Shown: in pieces, positions 5,561-62,888 of the stretch
Layout: each line of letters opens with the position of its first letter
Position numbering within the stretch: the stretch's first letter is position 1
Assembly: GCA_026003195.1 (NCBI GenBank)
Contig: BPGU01000004.1
Location: forward strand, 320,317 to 384,316
DNA length: 64,000 nt
Reading direction: 5' to 3'
From: Armatimonadota bacterium
Lineage (GTDB): Bacteria > Armatimonadota > HRBIN16
Program-made: the position numbers and the translations under genes
Notes under the pieces: model-generated
The model's input: the letters and a program-made list of their open reading frames with translations, nothing else
Told to the model about the DNA's origin: nothing
Databases searched by the model: none

Positions 5561-6686
5561 CTAAGGCAAATCCCATATCAGCAAGCGGCACGGCAGCTCC
5601 GCCTGCAGGAAGTCGTAACATGCGGTCGGCTCCACCGGGGCAAACTGCTCCAGCGCAGGGTTGTCGCTGATGGCCACGATACGGCTCCCGCCGTACTCTG
5701 TGCTCCATTTGTGCCATAGCTTCCGGTACGGATGCACCAGTTCCGAAGGCTTGCCCATGCGCACGCCGTAGGGTGGGTTGGTCACCAGCACTACCGGTTG
5801 CTCGGGCGGTGGTAAGGTGAGCGCATTCGCCACCGAGAACACGATATCGCCGACCTCGCTGCCTGTGCGTTTTGCCTGGCTATCTCGATGGATCGCGCGT
5901 TCCAGTCGCTGCTTCGTATCGGGGGAGAGACGCTGTTCACCGTTCTGCTAACCTCCAGTTGCGCCTGCCATCGCCGCTCGTCGTGCGGGATCAGCACGCG
6001 AAATGCCCACTCCTCGCGTCCCATCCCAGCAGGGGGGCTGATCCCTCGTCGCCACAATGCGCCCTCTATCAACAGCGTGCCCGTGCCGCACATCGGGTCT
6101 ACCAGCGGGCGGTCGTCCCACCTGGAAGCCATCACCACTGCTGCCGCCAGCGTGGGGCGCAGGGCGGTGAGATGTGCCAGACTCTGCCGCCACGGTCGGC
6201 GATGCAGGCTGGAGCCGGTGAGGTTGAAACCCAGCAGGTACTGGTCGTCCACCAGCGTGGAGAATATCTCTACGTCAGGGTTGTCCAGATTCACAGGAGG
6301 ACGCTGCCCCCTGCGTGCGATGAAGCGGTCGCACACGACCTGCCCCACCACGCGGGCGATGTCCATGTTGGTGAAGTCGTGTGTGCCGTCGCGCTCGGAG
6401 CGGATGGCGAAGGCGTAGCGGTTCTCGAACCACTCTTCGTAGGGAACCTGCCACGCGACCTCTTCGATCTCCTTCAGGTTCCTCACCTGTGCCCGCGCCA
6501 GCAGGACGAATACGCGATGGACGGTACGAGCGTACAGGTACAGGCGGTAGAGAATGTTCCACTCGGCGCGGAAGAAGACACGTGATGGCTCGTGTCGGTG
6601 ACCTCCGCGCACAAGGTGCTGAGCTCCCGTGCGGTGATAAACTCCAGCCCGGTGGTGCAAGTGGCAAAGAACTCGGTAAGCATCAT
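5561..6686 (-). pseudogene. THUMP/RlmL-type 23S rRNA methyltransferase gene with two frameshifts
   Basis: Three frames join into one recognisable class I SAM methyltransferase of about 375 residues. Frame 1 starts at 6686 (MMLTEFFATCTTGLEF, the RlmL/THUMP start). Frame 2 takes over near 6585 (SRVFFRAEWNILYRLYLYAR) and carries DPMCGTGTLLIEGAL and SDWNARSIEIARQNAQAA. Frame 3 takes over near 5865 (EVGDIVFSVANALTL) and carries the catalytic TNPPYG, ending at 5561. Each switch needs one base restored, near GACACGAGCCATCAC and near GCAGCGAGGTCG. Neither site is a homopolymer. All key motifs are intact, so this is either a very recent pseudogene or two sequence errors. Family members add m2G to 23S rRNA. 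Confidence 0.85.
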
Positions 6687-6995
6687 CCCCCTGCCATTAT
6701 CATATCACAGAAAGGATGGGGTACCGGTGGATTTTTTCAGAAGTTGCCGAGCAATCCCCGTGACAGCATGAAGTTCTGGTAGAAGTTGCGTATCCAGGAA
6801 GGGGGGCAAGACGGTTTTGGTGCTCTTCCAGGCGGAGAGAACCTTGCCGTAGGTTCCGGGTTCGATGCGCAGTGGTCAGCTGAGACGTGCAGTTTCTGCC
6901 TGAGCCGCTGCAGAAAGCCCGCCCAAAATGTTGGAGCACGCGGGTTGGTTGTGGGTGTGGAGGGCTAAGCGATTTCTCGATCACCGTCCCAACGA
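6687..6995. other. Intergenic region with no recognised content
   Basis: About 310 bases between the broken methyltransferase and the radical SAM promoter. No coding frame with a ribosome site, no clear hairpin and no match to the window's repeat families was seen. Confidence 0.4.
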
Positions 6996-7032
6996 TTGAC
7001 TCTCCCGTCCAGTATGGTATACAATAGTATAC
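6996..7032 (+). promoter_or_regulatory. Promoter with a palindrome over -10 and start site
   Basis: TTGACT (6996-7001), 16-nt spacer, TATACA (7018-7023). The inverted repeat GTATACAATAGTATAC (7017-7032) covers the -10 and likely +1. The start codon at 7036 is only 12 nt past the -10, so the mRNA is probably leaderless or nearly so. Confidence 0.65.
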
Positions 7033-7035
7033 GTC

Positions 7036-7842
7036 ATGCGCTACCTGCAGGTTCAGGAGATACGCTGCAAACATCTGCTACACCGAACAGGCGCGTCCTT
7101 TGCAGAGTGGACACTCAATCCATACATCGGATGCGGGTTCGGCTGCTCCTATTGCTACGTACCTATACTGCGGGCAAAACGCGGTCAGGAGGGGGCGGAA
7201 ACATGGGGCAGCTGGGTGCAGGTGAAAGTGAACGCGCCCGACGTCGTGCGACGGGAGATGCTGGAAGTGCCCCGCGATGCACACCTTCTCATCGGCAGCG
7301 CGACCGACGCCTGGCAACCGATAGAGAAGCGCTATCAGGTATCGCGCGGGGTACTGTATGAGCTGAGCTTTTACCCGAACCGGGTGACCATCCTCACCCG
7401 TTCTCCCCTGCTTCTCCGTGACATCGACCTGCTGAAGCGGTTCGAGCACGTCTCGGTACACATCTCCGTTCCCACAGTGGATGAAAAGGTGCGCCGTGTC
7501 TTCGAGCCGCACGCGCCGGCGGTGGCAGGACGGCTGGAGCTCACACGCCGGTTGCTGAACGCCAGCATCCGTGCGACCTGGGCGTGGTGCCCGTTCTTGC
7601 CGGGCGTAGAGAACACCCCCGAACAGATCCGGCAGTATGTGCGAACGGCGGCGCAAACCGGCGTACGCGAAATCTGGGTGGGCAGGATCAACTACTGGAG
7701 CTTTCTGGAGGAACGTTACAAAGCGCTGTTGCGCAGATACCGGGCGCAAGCGGGGTGGGTAGCGCGCCCGCTGGTACGGGAGGAGACCGAGCAGCTGGTG
7801 CGGGAAGAGTGCGCGAAGGTGGGAATTGTATGCCGGATTTGA
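7036..7842 (+). CDS. SPL-like (Rv2578c-type) radical SAM protein
   Basis: 268 residues. The radical SAM [4Fe-4S] motif is CGFGCSYC, with Cys 33, 37 and 40 (CX3CX2C), preceded by EWTLNPYIGC, typical of spore-photoproduct-lyase-like and Rv2578c-like proteins. Those families form a 5'-deoxyadenosyl radical; the substrate of this subgroup is not established, and a DNA-repair-type role is only a possibility. There is no Shine-Dalgarno and the promoter lies directly upstream. The gene stands alone, facing the GYD gene across repeat copy B. Confidence 0.88.
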   Translation: MRYLQVQEIRCKHLLHRTGASFAEWTLNPYIGCGFGCSYCYVPILRAKRGQEGAETWGSWVQVKVNAPDVVRREMLEVPRDAHLLIGSATDAWQPIEKRYQVSRGVLYELSFYPNRVTILTRSPLLLRDIDLLKRFEHVSVHISVPTVDEKVRRVFEPHAPAVAGRLELTRRLLNASIRATWAWCPFLPGVENTPEQIRQYVRTAAQTGVREIWVGRINYWSFLEERYKALLRRYRAQAGWVARPLVREETEQLVREECAKVGIVCRI

Positions 7843-7860
7843 AACTGGTCGCCCCAAAAC

Positions 7861-7996
7861 CTGGAGGGCGAACCTCCGCGTGAGCCGAAACGGTTAGCCC
7901 CACCTTGCCTCCCCGCAAGCGGAGAGAGAAAGTGTCCCCCTGCCTGCAGAGGGATGAGAGGGAGGCTAACGGCTCGGCAGGAGCCTCGCCCTCCAG
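7861..7996. repeat. Dispersed palindromic repeat family 1, copy B (longest)
   Basis: Left arm at 7861-7899 (CTGGAGGGCGAACCTCC, GTGAGCCG, CGGTTAGCC) pairs with the right arm at 7964-7996 (GGCTAACGGCTCGG, GAGCCTCGCCCTCCAG) around a central segment of about 64 nt. It fills the gap between two convergent genes, 18 nt after one stop and 12 nt after the other. Confidence 0.85.
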
Positions 7997-8008
7997 AAGA
8001 ACCGCTGC

Positions 8009-8269
8009 CTAGAAGCTCTCTGCAGGAACAGCCAGCATGGTATCGGTGACCAGCAGACCGGTCTCCGCCACAGCGCGCAGGAAGCGGTTGGCGGTCGCCT
8101 GGTCCGGGGCAGACCACACAGATACCAGATCATACTGCCCGTAGGTAATCATCGCCGCCTGAATCTGGATACCGTGCTGGGAAGCCAGACTGTTGAGCTG
8201 TACCAGACCACCACCGAACAGGTCCTTCGCCCGCCCCGGTGCTGCTTTCGCGAGCGTCACAAACTGCAT
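8009..8269 (-). CDS. GYD-domain protein
   Basis: 86-residue single-domain protein of the GYD family, named for its conserved Gly-Tyr-Asp, here TYGQYDLVSVWSAPD in the middle. These small ferredoxin-fold proteins have no established activity. I chose the ATG at 8269 over the GTG at 8278 because GGGAGGTG is correctly spaced only from the ATG and overlaps the GTG. It lies 55 nt downstream of the ADP-ribosylglycohydrolase gene on the same strand and is probably co-transcribed. Confidence 0.85.
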   Translation of the reverse strand: MQFVTLAKAAPGRAKDLFGGGLVQLNSLASQHGIQIQAAMITYGQYDLVSVWSAPDQATANRFLRAVAETGLLVTDTMLAVPAESF

Positions 8270-8324
8270 GGCTGACACCTCCCTCGTTGGAGATTTGTGT
8301 ATCGCGCTTCAGGGAAGCCCCCTG

Positions 8325-9635
8325 TTAGCCTGTGCTGGTCAGTACCTTCGTCGCCTGCCTCAGACTGCGTTTTGCTAAATCGCTGATTCGGTTCTCGGCG
8401 AAACCAAACACCGCGCTGTACAGCGTGTCCCGCAGAGGTTCTATCCACTTCGCTGGTAATGCCTTCGCGCCGAATGCCGCTCCCCAGATACTGCCTGCGG
8501 TAGCGCCGTTGCAGTCGGTATCCATGCCCTGCATAACCGCGATGGTGATGACCTTTTCGAAGTCCGGCCAGCCCCACAGCAGAGCGTTCAGCACGATGGC
8601 GTCGTTATTGACCGTGTGTACGGGATGGTATTTGCCATAGTATCGATTCAAAAGGCGTTCCAGAGCCTCCTGCCAGCTCTGGCACTCTTTGCGCCACCGC
8701 AGGCAATCGCGTATCATCTCCGCTTCGCGGCTCTGAGCGGGGATTTCCGCCGCGCCCGCGTGGATGATCTCCATCACATCCTGCGTGGCAAAGGCAGCCG
8801 CTATCATCGCCGCGACGAACATCTCACCGTAGATGCCGTTTTTCACATGCGACAGGGCAGCATCCCGATAGGCGAACTCGGCCGCTTTCTCCGGGCAACC
8901 GGGCGCAACGTATCCCCAGAAATCCGCCCGAATACGCGCACCAATCCACTCACGGTAGGGGTTCAGGTGTCTCGGAACCTCCTCCAGAGGCAACTCATTG
9001 ACCAGATTGATGTACGCCTGCCGCTCCGCCGTGTAGGTCTGGTAGGCGGGGAGCAGGTGCAACCAGGCATTACCCACATCGCGCGTGGTGAAGTCCGCAC
9101 CATGCCCTTCAAAAATGTGCAAACCGAGAACCGTGTAGTCGGTGTCGTCATCACGCTCGCCAGCGCGGATATGTCCTCTGGTGCACCAGGTATACGGCTG
9201 CGGCACCCCATCGGGCGGAGTACGTGTCTGCGCAGGCAGGTAGTCGGTCATCGGGTAGGCATCTGCTCCCTCCAGGTACTGGCGGATGCGCTCGTGGCTC
9301 CAGCCCTCCACCGGCTTGCCCAGCATACACCCTGCCACACGTCCGAGCCACGCGCCGTGCAACCTGTCCAGCAGGTCCTCTTCACAGATGACCATTTGGA
9401 AACGGCGCACACCCTCGTCGCGCGCCTGTCGGATGCTGTGCAGGTCGCTGGGTTCGTGGTAAGGGAAATCCTCGCGGATGGGCAGAGCCATCAGCTCATG
9501 GTACAGGCTCCAGAGAGCATCTGCACTTTCCGCCTCCTGCCAGCGCCCCATGTAGCCAGTGACGTCTGCGCCCTCTTCGCCGCGCTGAATGATTTCGTCG
9601 TGCACCAGCACACGCAGTGTTTCTACAGATGGCAT
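8325..9635 (-). CDS. ADP-ribosylglycohydrolase family protein
   Basis: 436 residues. The ARH fold is shown by DRLHGAWLGRVAGCMLGKPVEG near the start of the domain and by the two metal-site motifs ERDDDTDYTVLGL and GMDTDCNGATAGSIWGA. ARH/DraG enzymes hydrolyse ADP-ribose links with two Mg2+ ions. The substrate cannot be read from sequence, and many bacterial members act on small molecules. An extra N-terminal helical stretch of about 70 residues precedes the domain. ATG at 9635 was chosen because AGGAG lies 8 nt upstream; the open frame starts at a TTG nine codons earlier that lacks a site. Confidence 0.92.
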   Translation of the reverse strand: MPSVETLRVLVHDEIIQRGEEGADVTGYMGRWQEAESADALWSLYHELMALPIREDFPYHEPSDLHSIRQARDEGVRRFQMVICEEDLLDRLHGAWLGRVAGCMLGKPVEGWSHERIRQYLEGADAYPMTDYLPAQTRTPPDGVPQPYTWCTRGHIRAGERDDDTDYTVLGLHIFEGHGADFTTRDVGNAWLHLLPAYQTYTAERQAYINLVNELPLEEVPRHLNPYREWIGARIRADFWGYVAPGCPEKAAEFAYRDAALSHVKNGIYGEMFVAAMIAAAFATQDVMEIIHAGAAEIPAQSREAEMIRDCLRWRKECQSWQEALERLLNRYYGKYHPVHTVNNDAIVLNALLWGWPDFEKVITIAVMQGMDTDCNGATAGSIWGAAFGAKALPAKWIEPLRDTLYSAVFGFAENRISDLAKRSLRQATKVLTSTG

Positions 9636-9765
9636 CGCCTCGTCTCCTGAAAAAACGTCCAAAGGTCGTGGTCACAACGCAGCGTGACCCTTCCAAAAGC
9701 CGTCTCGCAACCATTCTTCGCGAGGGCAATCGACTACTCCTTCGCGCACATCCTGAAGATGAGTC

Positions 9766-11466
9766 TCAAGGAGGCCACATCGTGCCCAGCTGAGCGGCAT
9801 AGTACTTTCCTGCGTGCAGTTGCTGTAGGTGCAGGTCGGTTTGCCAGGCGCTTTCCAGGCGCATCGTATGCCATACCGAGAAGAGATAGAGCATCAATAG
9901 AACCCCTGCGATGGGCAAGCCTCCCCGCCGAACACCTTCCACCAGCGCGACGTTCGGCTCCTGCGCACGTACCAGCCCCCAGATGCCTATCGCAGTCACT
10001 ATCATCAGCAGTAGAAATGCAATCGCCATCGCCGTTGCCGTACGGAAGATCAGTGGCGACACCACCACCCACTCAGGCTGGAACTCTGCCCATTTTGCCA
10101 TCTCTGCCAGCATGACCATCGTCCGTGCCGGGAAGTCCGCCCACGGGGAGAGCACCATGAGCACACCAGCCACCAGCACGGTTGCCAGCAGCACGATATA
10201 AGGTGCCATACCCTGACGCAGCGAGGTGTGAGCCACTACCAGATACACCAGCCAGAGGAGAAAGGTTCCCCAAAACAGAAACAGCAAGAGCATGTTGACC
10301 GTCCATGCGCGCACCAGCTTCAGAGGCATGGATAGCCATCGCTGAGGCTCTACGCCTGCGCGGAGGATGGTGCGTGATGCGTCCGCCGCAGCAAACTCGC
10401 GCCGCACCCAGTCCGCGTCCATATCTCTTCCCATTGTGCGGAGAGACAAAACAAACTGCTGTCGGTTTCTTTGCCTGCGCTGTTCCGCCGTTTCGTTGGG
10501 GCGCCTTGCAGAGTGAGATGAGACGATAACCACATCCTCTACTGCCACTGCCACAAGCGCACCAATACTACTTCTCGCCTGGGCACGTATCCGACTGGCG
10601 CAATGCAGCATCGCAAGACGAATGTCTGCCGCCTCATGCCACTTGCCCTCTTTCTCCTTCTCATGGGCAAGATACCGCACCATTCTTGCTACAGAACGGA
10701 TGCCTGTCCAGTGCGGTTCCACCACCGCATACGATTTCGCAAAAGTGGAAATCGAAGATGATTTGCCAAAGGCAGTTTCCAGAAGATACAGCCCAGCCTC
10801 TGTCTCCTCGCGAGTGTAGTCCTCCCAGCGCGGTTTGCGGCTCGCACGTCGGACTGCTGCCAGCGCCTCTTTGTCACGATGAGCAGCGAACAGCCCCACC
10901 GCTCGCATCAGCGGAAAGTAGAGATTATCCGGGTCCACCCGTTCGCCCTCAGCGGCTATCCTGTCGTATGCGGAGAGATCTTCCGGAGAAGACGGCACGA
11001 CACTCTGGGCATTCGGTCGCTGGCTGGGTGGATAAAGCGCCCATTCCTCCACGCGCTGGATACGCACACGCTTCACCGTATCGTAACGCAGAACATGGGC
11101 GAGCAGGGCAGGTCGGCTGCCGAAGCGAGGCAACAGGTCGCCCAAATCCACCTCTGAGGGAGCACCCCGTTGCAACCTCCAGGACAGCTGGATGAGATAG
11201 TCCTCCGGGTGTTGCCTGACAACCTCCTCCAGCCTGACGCGAAACCACTCTGGCTCCGGCTCGGGCGCGCGAGGAGTTTGCACATACCACTCCCTCAAAG
11301 CCACATATGTATCCCGCGACGAGAAGAGCAGTCGGCACTGCATACGGATAAGCCAGGCGGTCTCTGGATGCCAGGCGAGTATCATCAGCAATACCGCAGG
11401 CACCACCATCCCCGTATAAGCGACCCACCGCATCGCCTGGGGTGTCCTGTTGCTTCCCTTGGACAT
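9766..11466 (-). CDS. Multi-pass membrane protein of unknown function
   Basis: 566 residues. One membrane segment lies near the N-terminus (VAYTGMVVPAVLLMILAW). A soluble, helix-rich region of about 350 residues follows, TPR-like in feel but without a clear repeat. Four C-terminal hydrophobic segments follow (MLLLFLFWGTFLLWLVYLVV; APYIVLLATVLVAGVLMVL; TAMAIAFLLLMIVTAIGIWG; GVLLMLYLFSVW). No catalytic motif is seen. Start at 11466 has GGAG 9 nt upstream. It is a single gene 107 nt after rex. The tail architecture loosely echoes the membrane protein at 17024-18850, but I cannot show homology. Confidence 0.75.
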   Translation of the reverse strand: MSKGSNRTPQAMRWVAYTGMVVPAVLLMILAWHPETAWLIRMQCRLLFSSRDTYVALREWYVQTPRAPEPEPEWFRVRLEEVVRQHPEDYLIQLSWRLQRGAPSEVDLGDLLPRFGSRPALLAHVLRYDTVKRVRIQRVEEWALYPPSQRPNAQSVVPSSPEDLSAYDRIAAEGERVDPDNLYFPLMRAVGLFAAHRDKEALAAVRRASRKPRWEDYTREETEAGLYLLETAFGKSSSISTFAKSYAVVEPHWTGIRSVARMVRYLAHEKEKEGKWHEAADIRLAMLHCASRIRAQARSSIGALVAVAVEDVVIVSSHSARRPNETAEQRRQRNRQQFVLSLRTMGRDMDADWVRREFAAADASRTILRAGVEPQRWLSMPLKLVRAWTVNMLLLFLFWGTFLLWLVYLVVAHTSLRQGMAPYIVLLATVLVAGVLMVLSPWADFPARTMVMLAEMAKWAEFQPEWVVVSPLIFRTATAMAIAFLLLMIVTAIGIWGLVRAQEPNVALVEGVRRGGLPIAGVLLMLYLFSVWHTMRLESAWQTDLHLQQLHAGKYYAAQLGTMWPP

Positions 11467-11573
11467 AACCGGTGTCTCCAAGCCGAGAGCATGGCAGCCC
11501 CGTAGCACCGGGGGCAGCACCGGGAACTGCCTCCGTGACTCAGGACACACCGGCAACGGCGAGGGTTTCGCTC

Positions 11574-55436: not shown

Positions 55437-56933
55437 CTACACCCAGTGCACCTGGCGTATACGAGGTGCGCGGGCGAGGTATCGCTTCGCCTGCTCAGGC
55501 GTCATCTCCGGGTTGCGGAAGGAGATGCCGGACAGCCTCAGCATTCGGTGGAACGCTTCCTTGTGCGGCTGGATACCCGCAAACATCTCCTTGCCCGCTC
55601 CCAGCGCGGTCACCAGCGTCCAGTCGCCCGTGTGCTGCGTGCCTATCCACGCGATGCCGTTGTAGTTGGACAGGATCTCACCGAGCACGCCCGACAGGTT
55701 GGCATGGGCACGGTTGAGCGTGGGGGCGGTTTTGCCACTGGCGACGCTGGCAACAACCTCTGCCTCCTCACGGGTGATCTCCACACCTGTTATCTCACGC
55801 ACCGCCTCTCGCACTCTATCGGCAGTGGGTGTGCCCGCCTTCTTCAGCAGCTCCTGAACGGCAACGTAAGAGCCTTTTGCCTGTGTGATACGCTCCAGGC
55901 ACTTTGCGCTGTCACGATACTCTTCGCCCATACCGTTCAATCCCGGGTTGGAATTGCCGTGGTCGCTGGTAATGACCAGCAGAGTATCGGGATGCCTGCG
56001 TACAAAGTCTACAGCCACCGGAATGGCATCATCGAACGCCAGCTGGTCCCAGAGCAGAGCGGCGGCATCGTTGGCATGTGCTGCGTGGTCTACACGTCCC
56101 CCCTCCACCTGAAGCAGGAAGCCTTTCGGGGAGCGGGACAGGATTTCGAGCGCAGCGCGCGTCATCTCCGCCAGCGTGGGAACCCGTTCCCAGATCTGAG
56201 GGTCGTTCTGATGGTCGATGGTATAGGGCACATGTCCCCCGTAGAACAGTCCCAACACCTTCTCCGGGCGTTCGCGTCCCCGCACCTGTTCGCGCCTCTC
56301 CCAGAAGGCATACCCTTTGCGCTGGTATTCCTCGATCAGGTTGCGTTTATCCGAGCGCTGTTCCGGGTCAAAGAAGCGTCGCCCCCCGCCCATCAGCACG
56401 TCCACCACCTCCAGATACTGCTCGGCAATCACCTGTTCCTCATCGCGGCTCCAATGCGACGCTGCAAACCCCGCAGGTGTAGCGTGGGTAATCGTCGTGG
56501 TCGTGACCAGCCCGAGCTTTTTGCCCGCCCGGCGCATCACGTGCGCAATAGGTGTCAGCTTCGTGCCATCCGGCAGAACATTCACCGCCCCGTTGAACAC
56601 GCGCGAACCGCTGCCCCACGCACTGCTCGCCGCCGAGGAGTCGGTCACCAGCGAGTCCAGCGAACGAGTTTCAAACAGCCCCACCACCGCTTCGGGGTCT
56701 TGCAACAGACGGAACCAGTGAGTGCCTCTGCCGCGCACCATCTGCGAGAAAGGCTCCGCTATCGATGGCACACCCATGCTCATGCCATCGGAGACCATGA
56801 AGATGATGTTCTTGACGGGGGTAGAGCGAGTCCGTCCCTGCGCAGAGGCTTCCCGAAAGAGCAATCCACTGCTCACCAGTGCTGCTGCTCCCGCCTGCAA
56901 CAGTTCTCGTCGCGAAAGGTCTGATGATGTCAT
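55437..56933 (-). CDS. Tat-exported alkaline phosphatase
   Basis: 498 residues. Signal MTSSDLSRRELLQAGAAALVSSGLLF carries the twin-arginine motif SRREL, so it is exported folded. The phosphatase core has MVSDGMSMG (metal Asp), SLVTDSSAASSAWGSG (nucleophile Ser of the D-S-x-x-(T/S)-A type), GGGRRFF, EGGRVDHAAHAND and ITSDHGNSN (metal His). It uses two zinc ions and one Mg2+ to hydrolyse phosphomonoesters outside the cell. CAGGAGGAG precedes ATG 56933. No phosphate-regulon genes are adjacent. Confidence 0.95.
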   Translation of the reverse strand: MTSSDLSRRELLQAGAAALVSSGLLFREASAQGRTRSTPVKNIIFMVSDGMSMGVPSIAEPFSQMVRGRGTHWFRLLQDPEAVVGLFETRSLDSLVTDSSAASSAWGSGSRVFNGAVNVLPDGTKLTPIAHVMRRAGKKLGLVTTTTITHATPAGFAASHWSRDEEQVIAEQYLEVVDVLMGGGRRFFDPEQRSDKRNLIEEYQRKGYAFWERREQVRGRERPEKVLGLFYGGHVPYTIDHQNDPQIWERVPTLAEMTRAALEILSRSPKGFLLQVEGGRVDHAAHANDAAALLWDQLAFDDAIPVAVDFVRRHPDTLLVITSDHGNSNPGLNGMGEEYRDSAKCLERITQAKGSYVAVQELLKKAGTPTADRVREAVREITGVEITREEAEVVASVASGKTAPTLNRAHANLSGVLGEILSNYNGIAWIGTQHTGDWTLVTALGAGKEMFAGIQPHKEAFHRMLRLSGISFRNPEMTPEQAKRYLARAPRIRQVHWV

Positions 56934-57126
56934 TGTCTCCTCCTGTAGATTTTGCGTGGTCTCACTGCCTGATATTTCATTATACCTTCGGAGATATTTA
57001 GAAATGATGATGCCCACATGTCGTCCGGCAGGAACGGAGACTGCAAAGCCTTTCCGCTGCTGCAGAAAGAGGGAAAGGATGTTACTCTGTTAAGCCTGAT
57101 GCTTGCCTACACCCTGCAAGGGAAGG

Positions 57127-57170: not shown

Positions 57171-57272
57171 CAGGGTGAAACCTGGAGCGGCTTGTAGAAG
57201 GAAAACCTCTACTTCTGGCGAATCAGCAAAGTGGTTATTCGGTTAACATAGGTGAACGAGGCGAGCACAGAA

Positions 57273-58094
57273 ATGGCGAGAGACACGGAACGTGAGCGCC
57301 ATACCGGCGAAATCCGCCTCGTCGTGCGTGGAGACGACATGGGTTCTTGCCACACGGCGAACGAGGCGTGCCTGCTGTGTTATCGGGAGGGTATCCTGCG
57401 CAGCGTGGAGGTGATGGTGCCTGCCCCGTGGTACCCAGAGGCGGTGCGGATGCTTCGAGAGTATCCCGAGCTGGATGTGGGCGTGCACCTGACCCTTACC
57501 AGCGAGTGGGAGGGCTGCAAATGGGGACCTGTCACCCATGCTCCCAGCCTGTGCGACCGGCGCGGACATTTCCTGCCGATGACCAGCCAGCGCGACGACT
57601 TCCCGCCGGGCACCGGCTTTCTGGAAAGCGGCTATCGGCTGGAAGAGGTGGAAGCGGAACTGCGTGCGCAGATTGAAATCGCGCTGGAGGACATCCCGCA
57701 GGTCTCGCACCTCTCCTGCCACATGGGCACGCCGATGGCTTCGCCGGATCTGCGCGACATCACACAGAGGCTCTCGCGCGAGTATCGGCTGCCGCTGGAG
57801 CATGAGGGAGTGCAGTTGGCAGGGCATCTCGGTGGGCAGGAAGCGGACGCACAGCGTAAGGAGGCGATTCTGCTGCAGATTCTGGACAGCCTCACGCCCG
57901 GTACGTGGCTCCTCGTAGACCATCCGGGGCTGGATACGCCGGAGATGCGTGCTCTGGGGCATATCGGGTATGAGCGTGTCGCTGCCGAGCGTGCGGCGGT
58001 CACGTATGCCCTTACGAGTGAAAAGGTGATACAGCGCGTTCGCGAGTATGGTATCCATCTCATCAGTTACGGCGATTTGCATCGAGCGGAGTAG
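57273..58094 (+). CDS. ChbG/YdjC-like carbohydrate deacetylase
   Basis: 273 residues. LVVRGDDMGSCHTANEAC gives the metal-binding DD, VGVHLTLTSEW the His, and VSHLSCHMGTPMA the further His of the ChbG/HpnK fold. ChbG removes an N-acetyl group from chitooligosaccharides; HpnK relatives act on hopanoid sugars. The ABC genes that follow suggest uptake of an acetylated sugar, but a 200-nt gap with a hairpin separates them. ATG 57273 has GAGGCGA upstream; GTG 57252 is an alternative start. Confidence 0.9.
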   Translation: MARDTERERHTGEIRLVVRGDDMGSCHTANEACLLCYREGILRSVEVMVPAPWYPEAVRMLREYPELDVGVHLTLTSEWEGCKWGPVTHAPSLCDRRGHFLPMTSQRDDFPPGTGFLESGYRLEEVEAELRAQIEIALEDIPQVSHLSCHMGTPMASPDLRDITQRLSREYRLPLEHEGVQLAGHLGGQEADAQRKEAILLQILDSLTPGTWLLVDHPGLDTPEMRALGHIGYERVAAERAAVTYALTSEKVIQRVREYGIHLISYGDLHRAE

Positions 58095-58150
58095 GAAGCA
58101 GTCGGTATGAGCAGGCGCAGTCTCCAGAAACGGTGGCACCTCTCCCCCAA

Positions 58151-58295: not shown

Positions 58296-61049
58296 ATGTT
58301 CAGGCTGGCTCTGCTGTTCATGGCGTTGCTGTTGGTGTCGGTAGCGCGCGCTGAAGACAAAAACGTGGTCACCATCCGGCTGGCGAATATCCCCCTGCGC
58401 AGCGCGACGGGCGTGCAGAATCAGGCGGAGCTGGCGGTGTTTGACGCCTTCTTCCGCAAGCACCCGAACTACCGCTACGAGCGCGTGACCGGTCTCGCCC
58501 TGCCGGAGGGTCTGGCGGAGGCGCAACAGATGATGGCATTCGCCGCCGACCGTGCTCCCGATGTGTTTGACCTCAGCATCCGACAGGTGCAAAACTACAT
58601 CCGCCAGGGGTTGATCCTGCCTCTGGACGACCTGATTCGCGAATACCGAAAGAAGAATCCGCACTGGAAACCGCCCTCGCTGGGCTTGACCGAGCACCAC
58701 TACGACGCCGCGCGCGGACCCGATGGCAAACTATACGCCATCGTCAGCGATTACTGGATTCTTGGGCTGTGGTATCGGCGCGACCTGTTCGAGGAAGCGG
58801 GCATCGTGCCGCCCCGACCGCCCAAAGACTGGCAGGAGTATTTCGAGTTCGCACAGCGGCTGACCTATCCCCAAAAGTATGTCAAGGGCGCGCGCTTCCA
58901 GACGGGGCAGTATGGAACCGCCATCCGCACCGGCTACACCGCAGGCTACATCTTCACCAACTTCGTGTACCAGGCGGGCGGCGACATGACTCTGCAGGAG
59001 CGCACCTGCCCGGTGGATGGTACGGTGAACGAGTTCAAGCAAGAGGACAAGCAGTGCCTGTGCCGCCAGTGCGGGCGCAGTCTGGCAGACCAGCCCCGAC
59101 GCTGGAAGGTGGCTTACGGACGCGAGCCGGGGCAACGTGCGCTGCGATTCTACAAAAAGCTGCGCTGGACGGAGTGGACACGCTGTCCCGATTGCCAGAC
59201 GCCCAACAACCTGCCGGTCGCGGTGTGCCCGAAATGCAAAGAGGAGAACCCCATTCGCGACGAGGTGGAGCGTCTCAGCTGCCGCGTGTGCGGCACGGTG
59301 ATACCGGTAAAGCGCGAGCAGACCCGTTTCCGCTGCAAAGAATGCGGACGCGACCTGCGTGGGCAGCCGGTGTACACCGGTGTGGTGCGCGTGGGGGGCG
59401 ACCCGGTGGAGATGTTCCTGCGCGGTGAAATCGCCATGATGCTGGACCACATCAACCCGCAGGTGATAGACCAGGTGCTCACGCAGGGCGGTTTGCGTCC
59501 CGACCAGATAGGGCTGGGGCCGCCTCCCAGCGCAGGCGAAGGGGGAGTACGCGCTGCGCTCACTGGAGGACGCGCCTGGGTCATCAGCGCACGCGCCGCC
59601 CGCGACCCGAAGGTGCTTCAGGCGGCGTGGGAGTACCTCGTCTTTCGATGCAGTGAGGAAGCACAGCGCATCATCACCGAAGTCTATGTGAAAGGCGGCT
59701 ACCCGCACCTCATCCGTCCGCAGATGCTGAAGAAGTTCGGCTTCACCGAAGAGTACGAGGACTACGAACCCACCTTCCGCCGGGCGATGGAGGAGGCTCC
59801 GAAATACGGGCGCATCCAGCCGCACGACCCCTACTACCAGCACGTGGAGGGGCACGAGCTGGCAGTTCCTATTGACACCATCCTGTACGAGGGCGGACAG
59901 TACAAGCACCCCGCACAGGTCATCCAGACCAGCATGAACAAGGTGAACGCGAAGCTGTACCGCGTGGTGCCGCCGGAGGTGGAGCGTCGGCGCAACCTGC
60001 TGGGCACTATTATCTTTCTGCTGGTGGCTCCGCTGGTGGTGTATGGGTTCGTGTGGGCGATGCGCGAGCAGTCGGAAGTGCATGTGGGCGCACTGCAGCA
60101 GAAAGCCACTCAGGTGGTCGGCTCCGGGGCACGGCGCAGGGTAACCACCATGCTGGCGTGGTCGTTGATGCTGCCTGCGCTGCTGACAGTGGTGCTGTGG
60201 CAGTACGTGCCACTGCTGCGCGGCACGCTGATGGCGTTCTACGACTACAAAATCTACGGCAACAGTCAGTTCGTGGGGCTGGCGAACTTCATCGAGGTGA
60301 TGACCAGCCCTGACTTCTGGAACTCGGTGCGGGCGACGGTGCTGTATGTGGGGCTAAATCTCGCCATCGGCTTCGTCGCGCCCATCTTCCTCGCGCTGCT
60401 GTTACACGAGGTACCGAGGGGCAAAATCCTCTTTCGCGTCATCTTCTATCTGCCGGCGGTCACCACCGGGCTGGTCATCATGTTCCTGTGGAAGATGTTC
60501 TACGACCCCTCGCCCTACGGCTTCCTGAACCGCATCATGATGCCCGTGCTGCACGCGCTGGGCGTGGTGTCGCCCGAGGTGAAGTACATCGACTGGCTGC
60601 ACACGCCCGGGTTGGCGATGCTGTGCGTGGTGATACCCGGCGTGTGGGCAGGGGCGGGACCGGGCAGCCTGATTTACCTCGCCGCGCTCAAAACCGTGCC
60701 CGAAGACCTGTACGAAGCCATCGCAGTAGACGGCGGCACCTTCTGGCACAAGATGTGGTACATCATGTTCCCCTCGCTCAAGCCGCTCATCCTGATTAAC
60801 TTCATCGGCGCGTTCATCGGCAGCTTCCACGCGATGCAGAACGTGTTCGTGATGACAGGCGGCGGTCCCGCCAACTCTACGATGGTGCTGGGCATTCATA
60901 TCTGGACGAACGCCTTCCTGTACCTGCGCTTCGGCTATGCGACGGCGATGGCGTGGGTGCTGGGCTCTGTGCTGATTGGCTTCACTATCCTGCAGCTGCG
61001 CATCCTCAAGCGCGTGGAGTTCCGCGCGGCACACGCGGTGGAGGCATGA
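58296..61049 (+). CDS. ABC transporter: solute-binding protein with zinc-ribbon insert fused to MalF-type permease
   Basis: 917 residues. Signal FRLALLFMALLLVSVARA; a family 1 solute-binding fold (VVTIRLANIP, FDAFFRKHPNYRYERVTG, PDVFDLSIRQVQNYIRQGLILPLDDL, GPDGKLYAIVSDYWILGLWYRRDLFEEAGI). Cysteines at 238, 254, 256, 259, 297, 300, 311, 314, 329, 332, 347 and 350 form CX2C knuckles, enough for three zinc ribbons, between GGDMTL and GDPVEMFLRGEIAMM. A membrane helix near 570 joins to a MalF-type permease with EAA loop DLYEAIAVDGGTFWHKMWYIMFPSLKP. ATG 58296 lacks a ribosome site but overlaps the stop of a 13-codon reading frame (58255-58296, TGATG). The second permease starts 3 nt later. No ATPase is adjacent. 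Confidence 0.9.
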   Translation: MFRLALLFMALLLVSVARAEDKNVVTIRLANIPLRSATGVQNQAELAVFDAFFRKHPNYRYERVTGLALPEGLAEAQQMMAFAADRAPDVFDLSIRQVQNYIRQGLILPLDDLIREYRKKNPHWKPPSLGLTEHHYDAARGPDGKLYAIVSDYWILGLWYRRDLFEEAGIVPPRPPKDWQEYFEFAQRLTYPQKYVKGARFQTGQYGTAIRTGYTAGYIFTNFVYQAGGDMTLQERTCPVDGTVNEFKQEDKQCLCRQCGRSLADQPRRWKVAYGREPGQRALRFYKKLRWTEWTRCPDCQTPNNLPVAVCPKCKEENPIRDEVERLSCRVCGTVIPVKREQTRFRCKECGRDLRGQPVYTGVVRVGGDPVEMFLRGEIAMMLDHINPQVIDQVLTQGGLRPDQIGLGPPPSAGEGGVRAALTGGRAWVISARAARDPKVLQAAWEYLVFRCSEEAQRIITEVYVKGGYPHLIRPQMLKKFGFTEEYEDYEPTFRRAMEEAPKYGRIQPHDPYYQHVEGHELAVPIDTILYEGGQYKHPAQVIQTSMNKVNAKLYRVVPPEVERRRNLLGTIIFLLVAPLVVYGFVWAMREQSEVHVGALQQKATQVVGSGARRRVTTMLAWSLMLPALLTVVLWQYVPLLRGTLMAFYDYKIYGNSQFVGLANFIEVMTSPDFWNSVRATVLYVGLNLAIGFVAPIFLALLLHEVPRGKILFRVIFYLPAVTTGLVIMFLWKMFYDPSPYGFLNRIMMPVLHALGVVSPEVKYIDWLHTPGLAMLCVVIPGVWAGAGPGSLIYLAALKTVPEDLYEAIAVDGGTFWHKMWYIMFPSLKPLILINFIGAFIGSFHAMQNVFVMTGGGPANSTMVLGIHIWTNAFLYLRFGYATAMAWVLGSVLIGFTILQLRILKRVEFRAAHAVEA

Positions 61050-61052
61050 GCG

Positions 61053-62888
61053 ATGGCTCTGTTCGGACCCTGCGAACAACGCACGCTGACCGCTCGCGCG
61101 GTGTATACCTTCATCTATACCGTGCTGATTGCAGGCTCGGTGACGATGATCTATCCCTTCCTGCTGATGCTGGGCGCGTCCATCACCACCGACACCGACT
61201 TCGACGACTGGCGCGTCCTCCCCGCCTACCTGCGCGACGACACCGCGCTGTTCCGCAAGTGGATGAACGACCGCTACGGCGCCGACTTCCACGTCGCCCG
61301 CCGCATCCATCGGCTGGAGGTGACCAGCTTCCGCTTCCTGGAAAAGATACCCGATTACCATGTGGAAGACCCCAAGGTGCAAAGGCGGGTGGACGACTGG
61401 CTGCAGTGTGTGAAAACCCTGCCCGACGAGTGGGTGAAGGCGCACTTCATCGACGACAAACGCACCCGCCTGACCAACCAGCGCTACGCCCGCTGGCTTA
61501 TCCGACGCTACGAGAACGATATCGAGGCGTTCAACCGGCAGTACGGCACGGTGTACTCCAGCTTTCCCGAGGTCGCGCCCTTTGAATATGACCTCACCCA
61601 CAAATCGCGTCGGGAGACCTCGCCGTTGCGTCAGCTCTATCTGCAGTTCCGTCATACCCTGCCCGCGCACGACCTGATGGCAGTACTGGCGACCGATGGC
61701 TTCCTCGCCTGGGTGGAGCGGCACATCGGCGGGATAGAGGAGCTGAATGCCCTGCTGGGCACGCGCTACCGGTCGCTGGACGAGGTGCTGTTCCCCGCAG
61801 AACGCCCCAAAGACCTTCGCTGGCAGAAGGTGTGGGATCGCTATGTGCGCGAGCGGTTCCCGCTGCTGTTTGTGCGTGTGGAGGGCAATTGGGATGCGCA
61901 GTGGCAACGCTTCTTGCGGCAAAGACATCCGCGCCGCCCGCTTTCCGAACAGCTGCTGCGTTTCTCACCCACCTTGCCGCAGGACGACCTGCGCTTTGCC
62001 GACTGGGTGCTGTTTGTGGATACGGTGGTGCCGCCCGAAGCCAAGCGGTTGACGACGGTAGAAGGTCTGTGGCGTCAGTGGCTGCGCCGCAAGTACGGCA
62101 CGCTACAGGCAGTCAACGCCGCACACGGCACGTCGTGGACGCGCTGGGAGGAAGTGTATCCCCCTCGCGCCGAGACGGACGTGCTCACCTTCTGGCGCCA
62201 GAAAGAGGAGATTCGGCGCGAATTCCTCACCCGCAACTATCGGCTGGTGCTGGACTACATCCTGTTTCACGGGCGCGCGCTGTGGAACACTTTCGTGCTG
62301 GTGCTGATGACGGTGCTGGGGCATTTGACGGTGCAACCGCTGGCGGCGTACGGGCTATCGCGGTTTCACCTGCCTTACGCGCACAAGATTCTGCTCTTCC
62401 TGCTGGCGACGATGGCGTTCCCCGCCGAGGTGGCGATGATTCCAAACTTCCTGCTGATTAAGGAGCTGGGCTTGCTGAACACCTACTGGGCGCTGGTGCT
62501 GCCCGGTCTGGCGAGCGGAATGGGCATCTTCCTGCTCAAAGGCTACTTCGACAGCCTGCCACAGGAGCTGTACGAGGCGGCGATGCTGGACGGTGCAGGC
62601 GAGCTGCGCATGTTCTGGAGCATCACTGTGCCGCTGTCTATGCCCATTCTGGCGGTGATTGCACTGGGTGCGTTTACCTCGGCGTATGGCGGGTTTATGT
62701 GGGCGTTTCTGGTGGTGCAAAAGCCCGAGATGTGGACGATGATGGTCTTCCTGTGGCAGCTGGGTCGGGACAGTTACCCGTGGGTATGGATGGCAAGTCT
62801 GGTCATCGCCGCCCTGCCCACCCTGCTGGTGTTCATCTTCGCGCAGAGGGTCATCCTGCGGGGCATCATCGTGCCGACGATGAAATGA
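61053..62888 (+). CDS. ABC transporter MalG-type permease with ~360-residue extracytoplasmic insertion
   Basis: 611 residues, against about 280 for a normal MalG-type subunit. TM1 at about 17-40 (VYTFIYTVLIAGSVTMIYPFLLML). Residues 45-400 then replace the usual short loop. The remaining segments start near 408 (WNTFVLVLMTVLGHLTVQPLAAYGLSRF), with EAA loop LPQELYEAAMLDGAGELRMFWSITVPLSMP. The insert has three motif copies: 148-175 (YENDIEAFNRQYGTVYSS), 219-248 (IGGIEELNALLGTRYRSL) and 343-370 (YGTLQAVNAAHGTSWTRW), each ending EV-x-x-P. This resembles the WLR-x-x-YGTL-x-x-LN-x-x-WGT motif of GH42-like glycosidases. It is likely paired with the fused protein upstream. Confidence 0.9.
   Translation: MALFGPCEQRTLTARAVYTFIYTVLIAGSVTMIYPFLLMLGASITTDTDFDDWRVLPAYLRDDTALFRKWMNDRYGADFHVARRIHRLEVTSFRFLEKIPDYHVEDPKVQRRVDDWLQCVKTLPDEWVKAHFIDDKRTRLTNQRYARWLIRRYENDIEAFNRQYGTVYSSFPEVAPFEYDLTHKSRRETSPLRQLYLQFRHTLPAHDLMAVLATDGFLAWVERHIGGIEELNALLGTRYRSLDEVLFPAERPKDLRWQKVWDRYVRERFPLLFVRVEGNWDAQWQRFLRQRHPRRPLSEQLLRFSPTLPQDDLRFADWVLFVDTVVPPEAKRLTTVEGLWRQWLRRKYGTLQAVNAAHGTSWTRWEEVYPPRAETDVLTFWRQKEEIRREFLTRNYRLVLDYILFHGRALWNTFVLVLMTVLGHLTVQPLAAYGLSRFHLPYAHKILLFLLATMAFPAEVAMIPNFLLIKELGLLNTYWALVLPGLASGMGIFLLKGYFDSLPQELYEAAMLDGAGELRMFWSITVPLSMPILAVIALGAFTSAYGGFMWAFLVVQKPEMWTMMVFLWQLGRDSYPWVWMASLVIAALPTLLVFIFAQRVILRGIIVPTMK

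Follow-up and report, generated by a model that had tools for sequence, protein, structure and literature searches.

At positions 58,296-61,049 of the 64,000-nucleotide stretch of Armatimonadota DNA analyzed here (the window), there is a gene for a 917-residue protein in which a sugar-binding protein is fused to a permease, as identified from the open reading frame with its translation and from Pfam matches (this and all window features described below are on the forward strand unless noted). The gene is one open frame, with an ATG at 58296 and a stop codon that ends at 61049; another in-frame ATG is located upstream, at 58107, and the start at 58296 is preferred because it fits the signal peptide. 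The latter is predicted for residues 1-20 (58296-58355) from a hydrophobic stretch at residues 1-19 and a cleavage site read from the sequence (MFRLALLFMALLLVSVARA|ED, with the junction VARA|ED), and lacks a lipobox cysteine. It is followed by a family 1 sugar-binding protein that carries two inserted modules (residues 21-545; 58356-59930) and matches SBP_bac_8 (3e-17) and SBP_bac_1 (6.9e-17), both above the cut-off, with the best stretches within residues 50-232; among solved structures, the best long binding-protein match of the family profile is the trehalose/maltose-binding protein 1eu8. An anchor transmembrane helix (residues 568-586; 59997-60053), recognized by hydropathy and as a long helix in the structural model, joins the binding protein to a MalF/SugA-type permease core (residues 609-912; 60120-61031) that consists of six helices, with an EAA-like loop near residue 806. 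BPD_transp_1 matches residues 692-907 above the cut-off (3.9e-11), and in VIA-align comparisons the modeled permease half aligns with SugA (7cad_A) at a Z score of 24.2 over 275 residues with an rmsd of 2.0, and likewise with MalF (Z 24).

Given that the binding protein has the signal peptide on one side and the anchor helix on the other, and that the MalF-type core begins in the cytoplasm, this predicted topology would place the binding protein outside the membrane. Nearly all matches in the structure comparison were permeases, with one binding-protein match; the binding-protein lobes themselves were poorly modeled (pLDDT often under 50), because the input to the model was limited to near relatives and ordinary importer parts. 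A frameshift or a mis-joining of separate genes was rejected as the source of the fusion, given that the same fusion recurs throughout the phylum, near relatives included.

The fused protein contains 14 cysteines, of which 12 (residues 238, 254, 256, 259, 297, 300, 311, 314, 329, 332, 347 and 350) fall within residues 238-350, the other two being at 452 and 777. The chance of such a 113-residue stretch is about 4e-7, and this probability together with the genus-wide invariance of the cysteines (see below) led us to reject a chance or drifting cluster. The first-pass annotation described these 12 cysteines as CX2C-style knuckles in one block. Their number and span are confirmed, but they are split over two loops of the binding protein, with four in loop 232-272 and eight in loop 293-360, and a helix in between that is also present in ordinary binding proteins; the knuckle description applies to both ribbons of the second loop but not to the first loop, which has one CX2C only.

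Insertion 1 (residues 232-272; 58989-59111), delineated from alignments with and without the insertion, is a ribbon-like module with four cysteines (C238, C254, C256 and C259) in the spacing C-X15-C-X-C-X2-C, where the first half-knuckle is CPVD; its pLDDT in the model is 59-73. Insertion 2 (residues 293-360) displays a tandem double zinc-ribbon pattern and is the only one of the two in which paired CxxC knuckles with ribbon spacing are complete. Its ribbon A (residues 293-316; 59172-59243; C297, C300, C311 and C314; CX2C-X10-CX2C) is assigned from a sub-cut-off match to DZR and predicted strands, and its ribbon B (residues 325-356; 59268-59363; C329, C332, C347 and C350; CX2C-X14-CX2C) from weak matches to Zn_ribbon_FGT1_2, HypA and PRK14890. 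Among the Pfam and further ribbon profiles compared with the fused protein, no zinc-ribbon family reached its curated cut-off: insertion 2 covers the entire DZR profile at 8e-5 and 23.1 bits (cut-off 27.3), scores 23.1 bits against TackOD1 (cut-off 32), and matches DZR_2, the FORGETTER1 ribbons, HypA and others below the cut-off, weakly but consistently. In the model, short strands lie between the knuckles of insertion 2 (for example, 303-305 and 308-310, with pLDDT 71-86). The DZR register and these strands suggest that the cysteines of insertion 2 pair sequentially, forming two sites. Nested pairing (297/300 with 347/350) was considered in view of single-ribbon relatives, whose cysteines line up with the outer pairs, but is disfavored by the same register and strand positions. 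Three putative tetrahedral metal sites in the fused protein are plausible. To our knowledge, zinc-ribbon-like modules are rare on the outer side of the cell membrane. The originally annotated combination of ribbon-like knuckles with an extracytoplasmic binding protein fused to a MalF-type permease is borne out by the Pfam matches, the weak ribbon matches, the strands in the model and the invariant cysteines.

Within the genus, all 12 cysteines are invariant in eight sequences, with switching between TGC and TGT at 10 of the 12 codons. Pairwise dN/dS is approximately 0.04 in both parts of the binding protein and in insertion 1, 0.03 in the permease and 0.15 in insertion 2, which, except for its cysteines, is looser than the remainder of the protein. 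The pattern of four cysteines in insertion 1 and eight in insertion 2 is that of the genus of the window. Neither insertion was found in 46 of the 84 sequences compared, a set that was partly picked for carrying insertions and is not a census. The cysteines are shared throughout the genus but not in the wider family, many members of which lack the modules altogether; as judged from the alignments, the ribbons are lineage-specific.

Other lineages show different ligand sets at the same two loops. One clade, of families f9 and f26, lacks insertion 1 and has a single, four-cysteine insertion 2, with the variants CEDDDEPC...CPKC and CPND...CKKCH, and in family f31 insertion 2 reads CPHC...CPQH. 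Insertion 1 of a further clade has a constant length of 40-41 residues and conserved neighbors, and takes the forms CPTCG...TCSKGH (Cys3His), CPQCG...DPAGH, CPTTG...APDTGED and SPTTG...APDTGED; its ligand set thus ranges from complete through partial to absent, with Ser, Thr or Ala in place of cysteine, although the module is retained. On a quick tree built without the insertion columns, the minimal number of changes is six for insertion 1, five for insertion 2 and five for the presence of cysteines; long branches meet in this tree, so that the exact number of insertion events is uncertain and gain and loss are not separable.

The fusion itself is far more widespread than the ribbons. A query comprising the linker and the permease has matches in 251 of the 291 Armatimonadota genomes; the stronger matches come from many families and lie in open frames of approximately 780-1100 residues, whereas the weaker ones may in part be ordinary separate permeases. 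Because the stronger matches are in such long frames and the alignments of fused homologues span both halves, we consider the fusion a widespread trait of Armatimonadota. The annotated fusion is accordingly real, but the architecture is phylum-wide rather than a local oddity. No plasmid record contained one place covering 80% of the fused protein, and among viral contigs the fused protein had no match and the partner permease (see below) matched only ordinary permeases. Another fused binding protein-permease, 818 residues long and without ribbon insertions, is encoded in the same genome (L162, positions 6563-9019), about 5 kb past the end of the window. Also in L162 (positions 9242-11470) is a gene for a 742-residue exported protein composed of near-identical TLTGCTLSGNRASGDGGGVYC-like repeats of the beta-helix type, with regularly spaced cysteines and two dockerin-like stretches at the end.

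Three bases past the fused gene begins the gene for a 611-residue MalG-type partner permease (61053-62888), identified from its open frame, a BPD_transp_1 match above the cut-off and structural similarity to MalG and AlgM2 (Z 19-20). The partner is located directly downstream of approximately 42 of the 65 sampled fused genes, including three cut or overlapping cases; it is just upstream in one (L107) and was not found next door in about 20, and the contig ends in four. Between TM1 and TM2, the partner contains an outer domain (residues 45-392; 61185-62228) of about 350 extra residues, which is conserved across Armatimonadota, ranges from 330 to 470 residues in 41 family members and is all-helical in the model. 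The profile of this domain aligned with itself yields shifted matches (E 4e-30 and 4e-21), which indicate four to five repeats, each about 70-78 residues long. One of the repeats matches Glyco_hydro_42 (2.7e-7, residues 336-405), and this match was detected in 12 of 17 relatives (best 6.8e-17). The similarity to GH42 (PF02449) consists of the motif W..WL..KYG...N...GT and is confined to profile positions 150-208, about 59 of 376; the partner differs from GH42 in its tandem repeats and in lacking a catalytic barrel, and no full GH42 catalytic domain was found. With so small a part of the profile and an all-helical model, the outer domain is not a GH42 enzyme. In the open-licence papers searched, we found no description of this domain.

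The components are those of a CUT1-type importer: a family 1 binding protein, a MalF/MalG-type permease pair and a MalK-type ATPase with an OB domain. The genome encodes one OB_MalK protein (1e-14), outside the operon of the fused gene. We consider it fairly likely that this is a sugar importer of the CUT1 type in which the receptor is tethered and, in some lineages, has its loop modules braced by metal, putatively zinc. In such an importer, the sugar-binding protein, covalently tethered through the anchor helix to the MalF-like half, would catch an oligosaccharide outside the membrane and dock on its own MalF half and on the MalG-like partner, which bears the large repeat-built outer domain, and import would probably be driven by the MalK-type ATPase encoded elsewhere. 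The three ribbons of the genus, one in insertion 1 and a tandem pair in insertion 2, would stiffen otherwise floppy loops, and the rigid loops could probably touch the partner's outer domain or influence how the binding cleft is reached. The architecture, the pairing of the two genes, the invariant cysteines and the distribution over lineages are observed; zinc binding, its structural role, docking and the sugar substrate are what we infer for this importer. As for the substrate, the match to 1eu8 may serve as a hint but is no proof. The same strand encodes a YdjC-like deacetylase (1.7e-43; 57252-58094) just upstream of the fused gene, and the opposite strand an alkaline phosphatase (5e-71; 55437-57017); these neighbors are a possible hint at amino-sugar oligosaccharides.

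The 12 cysteines might alternatively form redox or structural cystines without metal. Disulfides are common in exported proteins of thermophiles, the fused protein has a signal peptide and an even number of cysteines, and the genome encodes DsbD along with two VKOR-type oxidases (frames of 174 and 415 residues in L193 and L194), a pair that suggests an active disulfide-forming system by which exported cysteines could be oxidized. However, the spacings CPxC-X10-CPxC and CxxCG-X14-CxxCG are of the zinc-ribbon type, with many weak matches to ribbon families, one relative has 13 cysteines in its modules, and the Cys3His sets or Asp at a ligand position in other lineages do not fit disulfides. We regard this explanation as a serious rival, albeit rather unlikely. 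The first-pass annotation also raised zinc or redox sensing. In such a sensor, loss of zinc or oxidation would alter the binding protein and gate transport. Exposed cysteines on an extracytoplasmic receptor could indeed meet varying redox or metal levels, and the presence of ribbons is lineage-specific, but in sequences closely related to the Cys3His form, a module of the same length persists with the ligands changed to Ser, Thr or Ala, so that the transporter design is independent of the metal. The persistence of the module without ligands in sister lineages favors structural metal over sensing, and we consider a regulatory sensor highly improbable.

A further possibility is that the modules are recognition surfaces for polysaccharide, the cell wall or the outer domain of the partner, with zinc just shaping the surface. 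This explanation overlaps with the metal-braced importer and differs from it in placing recognition first. Both insertions are in neighboring loops of the binding protein, and the outer domain of the partner is large and conserved, whereas the faster evolution of insertion 2 relative to the other parts of the binding protein speaks against this role; recognition as the primary role is quite possible, if somewhat doubtful. To return to the metal-braced importer, docking on the outer domain of the partner is an appealing idea and may occur. In its boldest form, the outer loops of a phylum-wide receptor would repeatedly gain and lose ribbons that dock on the GH42-like repeat tower of the partner, making a closed receptor-permease machine with a metal-braced contact not known from other CUT1 importers, a scenario that we offer as speculative and unlikely.

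Among known systems, MalEFGK2 and LpqY-SugABC of the CUT1 class share with the importer described here the binding-protein family, the MalF/SugA- and MalG-type permeases with EAA-like loops and a MalK-type ATPase in the genome, but here the binding protein is fused to the MalF half and contains inserted ribbons. The repeat domain of 350 residues is between TM1 and TM2 of the MalG half; the large outer loop of the E. coli importer (P2) is instead part of MalF. The insertions resemble DZR (PF12773) and DZR_2 (PF18912) in the paired CxxC knuckles, ribbon spacing, tandem double arrangement and predicted short strands, but score below the curated cut-offs and occupy the loops of a sugar receptor that is exported. 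Covalently linked substrate-binding domains are present in GlnPQ, with permease and receptor classes unlike those of the fused protein. In OpuA, the receptor is linked to the permease, and a hydrophobic helix serves as an anchor (PMC11065425). The linkage through an anchor helix is similar in the fused protein, but the permease and receptor classes differ, and OpuA has a receptor on both halves of the transporter, whereas here it would be on one half of a heterodimer. The open-licence papers searched yielded nothing relevant on ribbons in binding proteins or on a binding protein-MalF fusion. The Fimbriimonas genome paper lists 68 permease genes and 28 substrate-binding genes, in passages that do not mention the fusion (PMC4072686); such numbers would be consistent with fused genes having been classed as permeases.

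The ribbon-bearing fused importer is real and conserved. The fusion and the repeat domain of the partner are wider in distribution than the ribbons and are perhaps the greater surprise: a whole phylum has a tethered MalF-type sugar receptor, along with a partner permease that bears a large, unusual outer domain. The presence, erosion and absence of zinc ribbons at fixed loops form a natural series in which the role of the metal outside the cytoplasm becomes testable.
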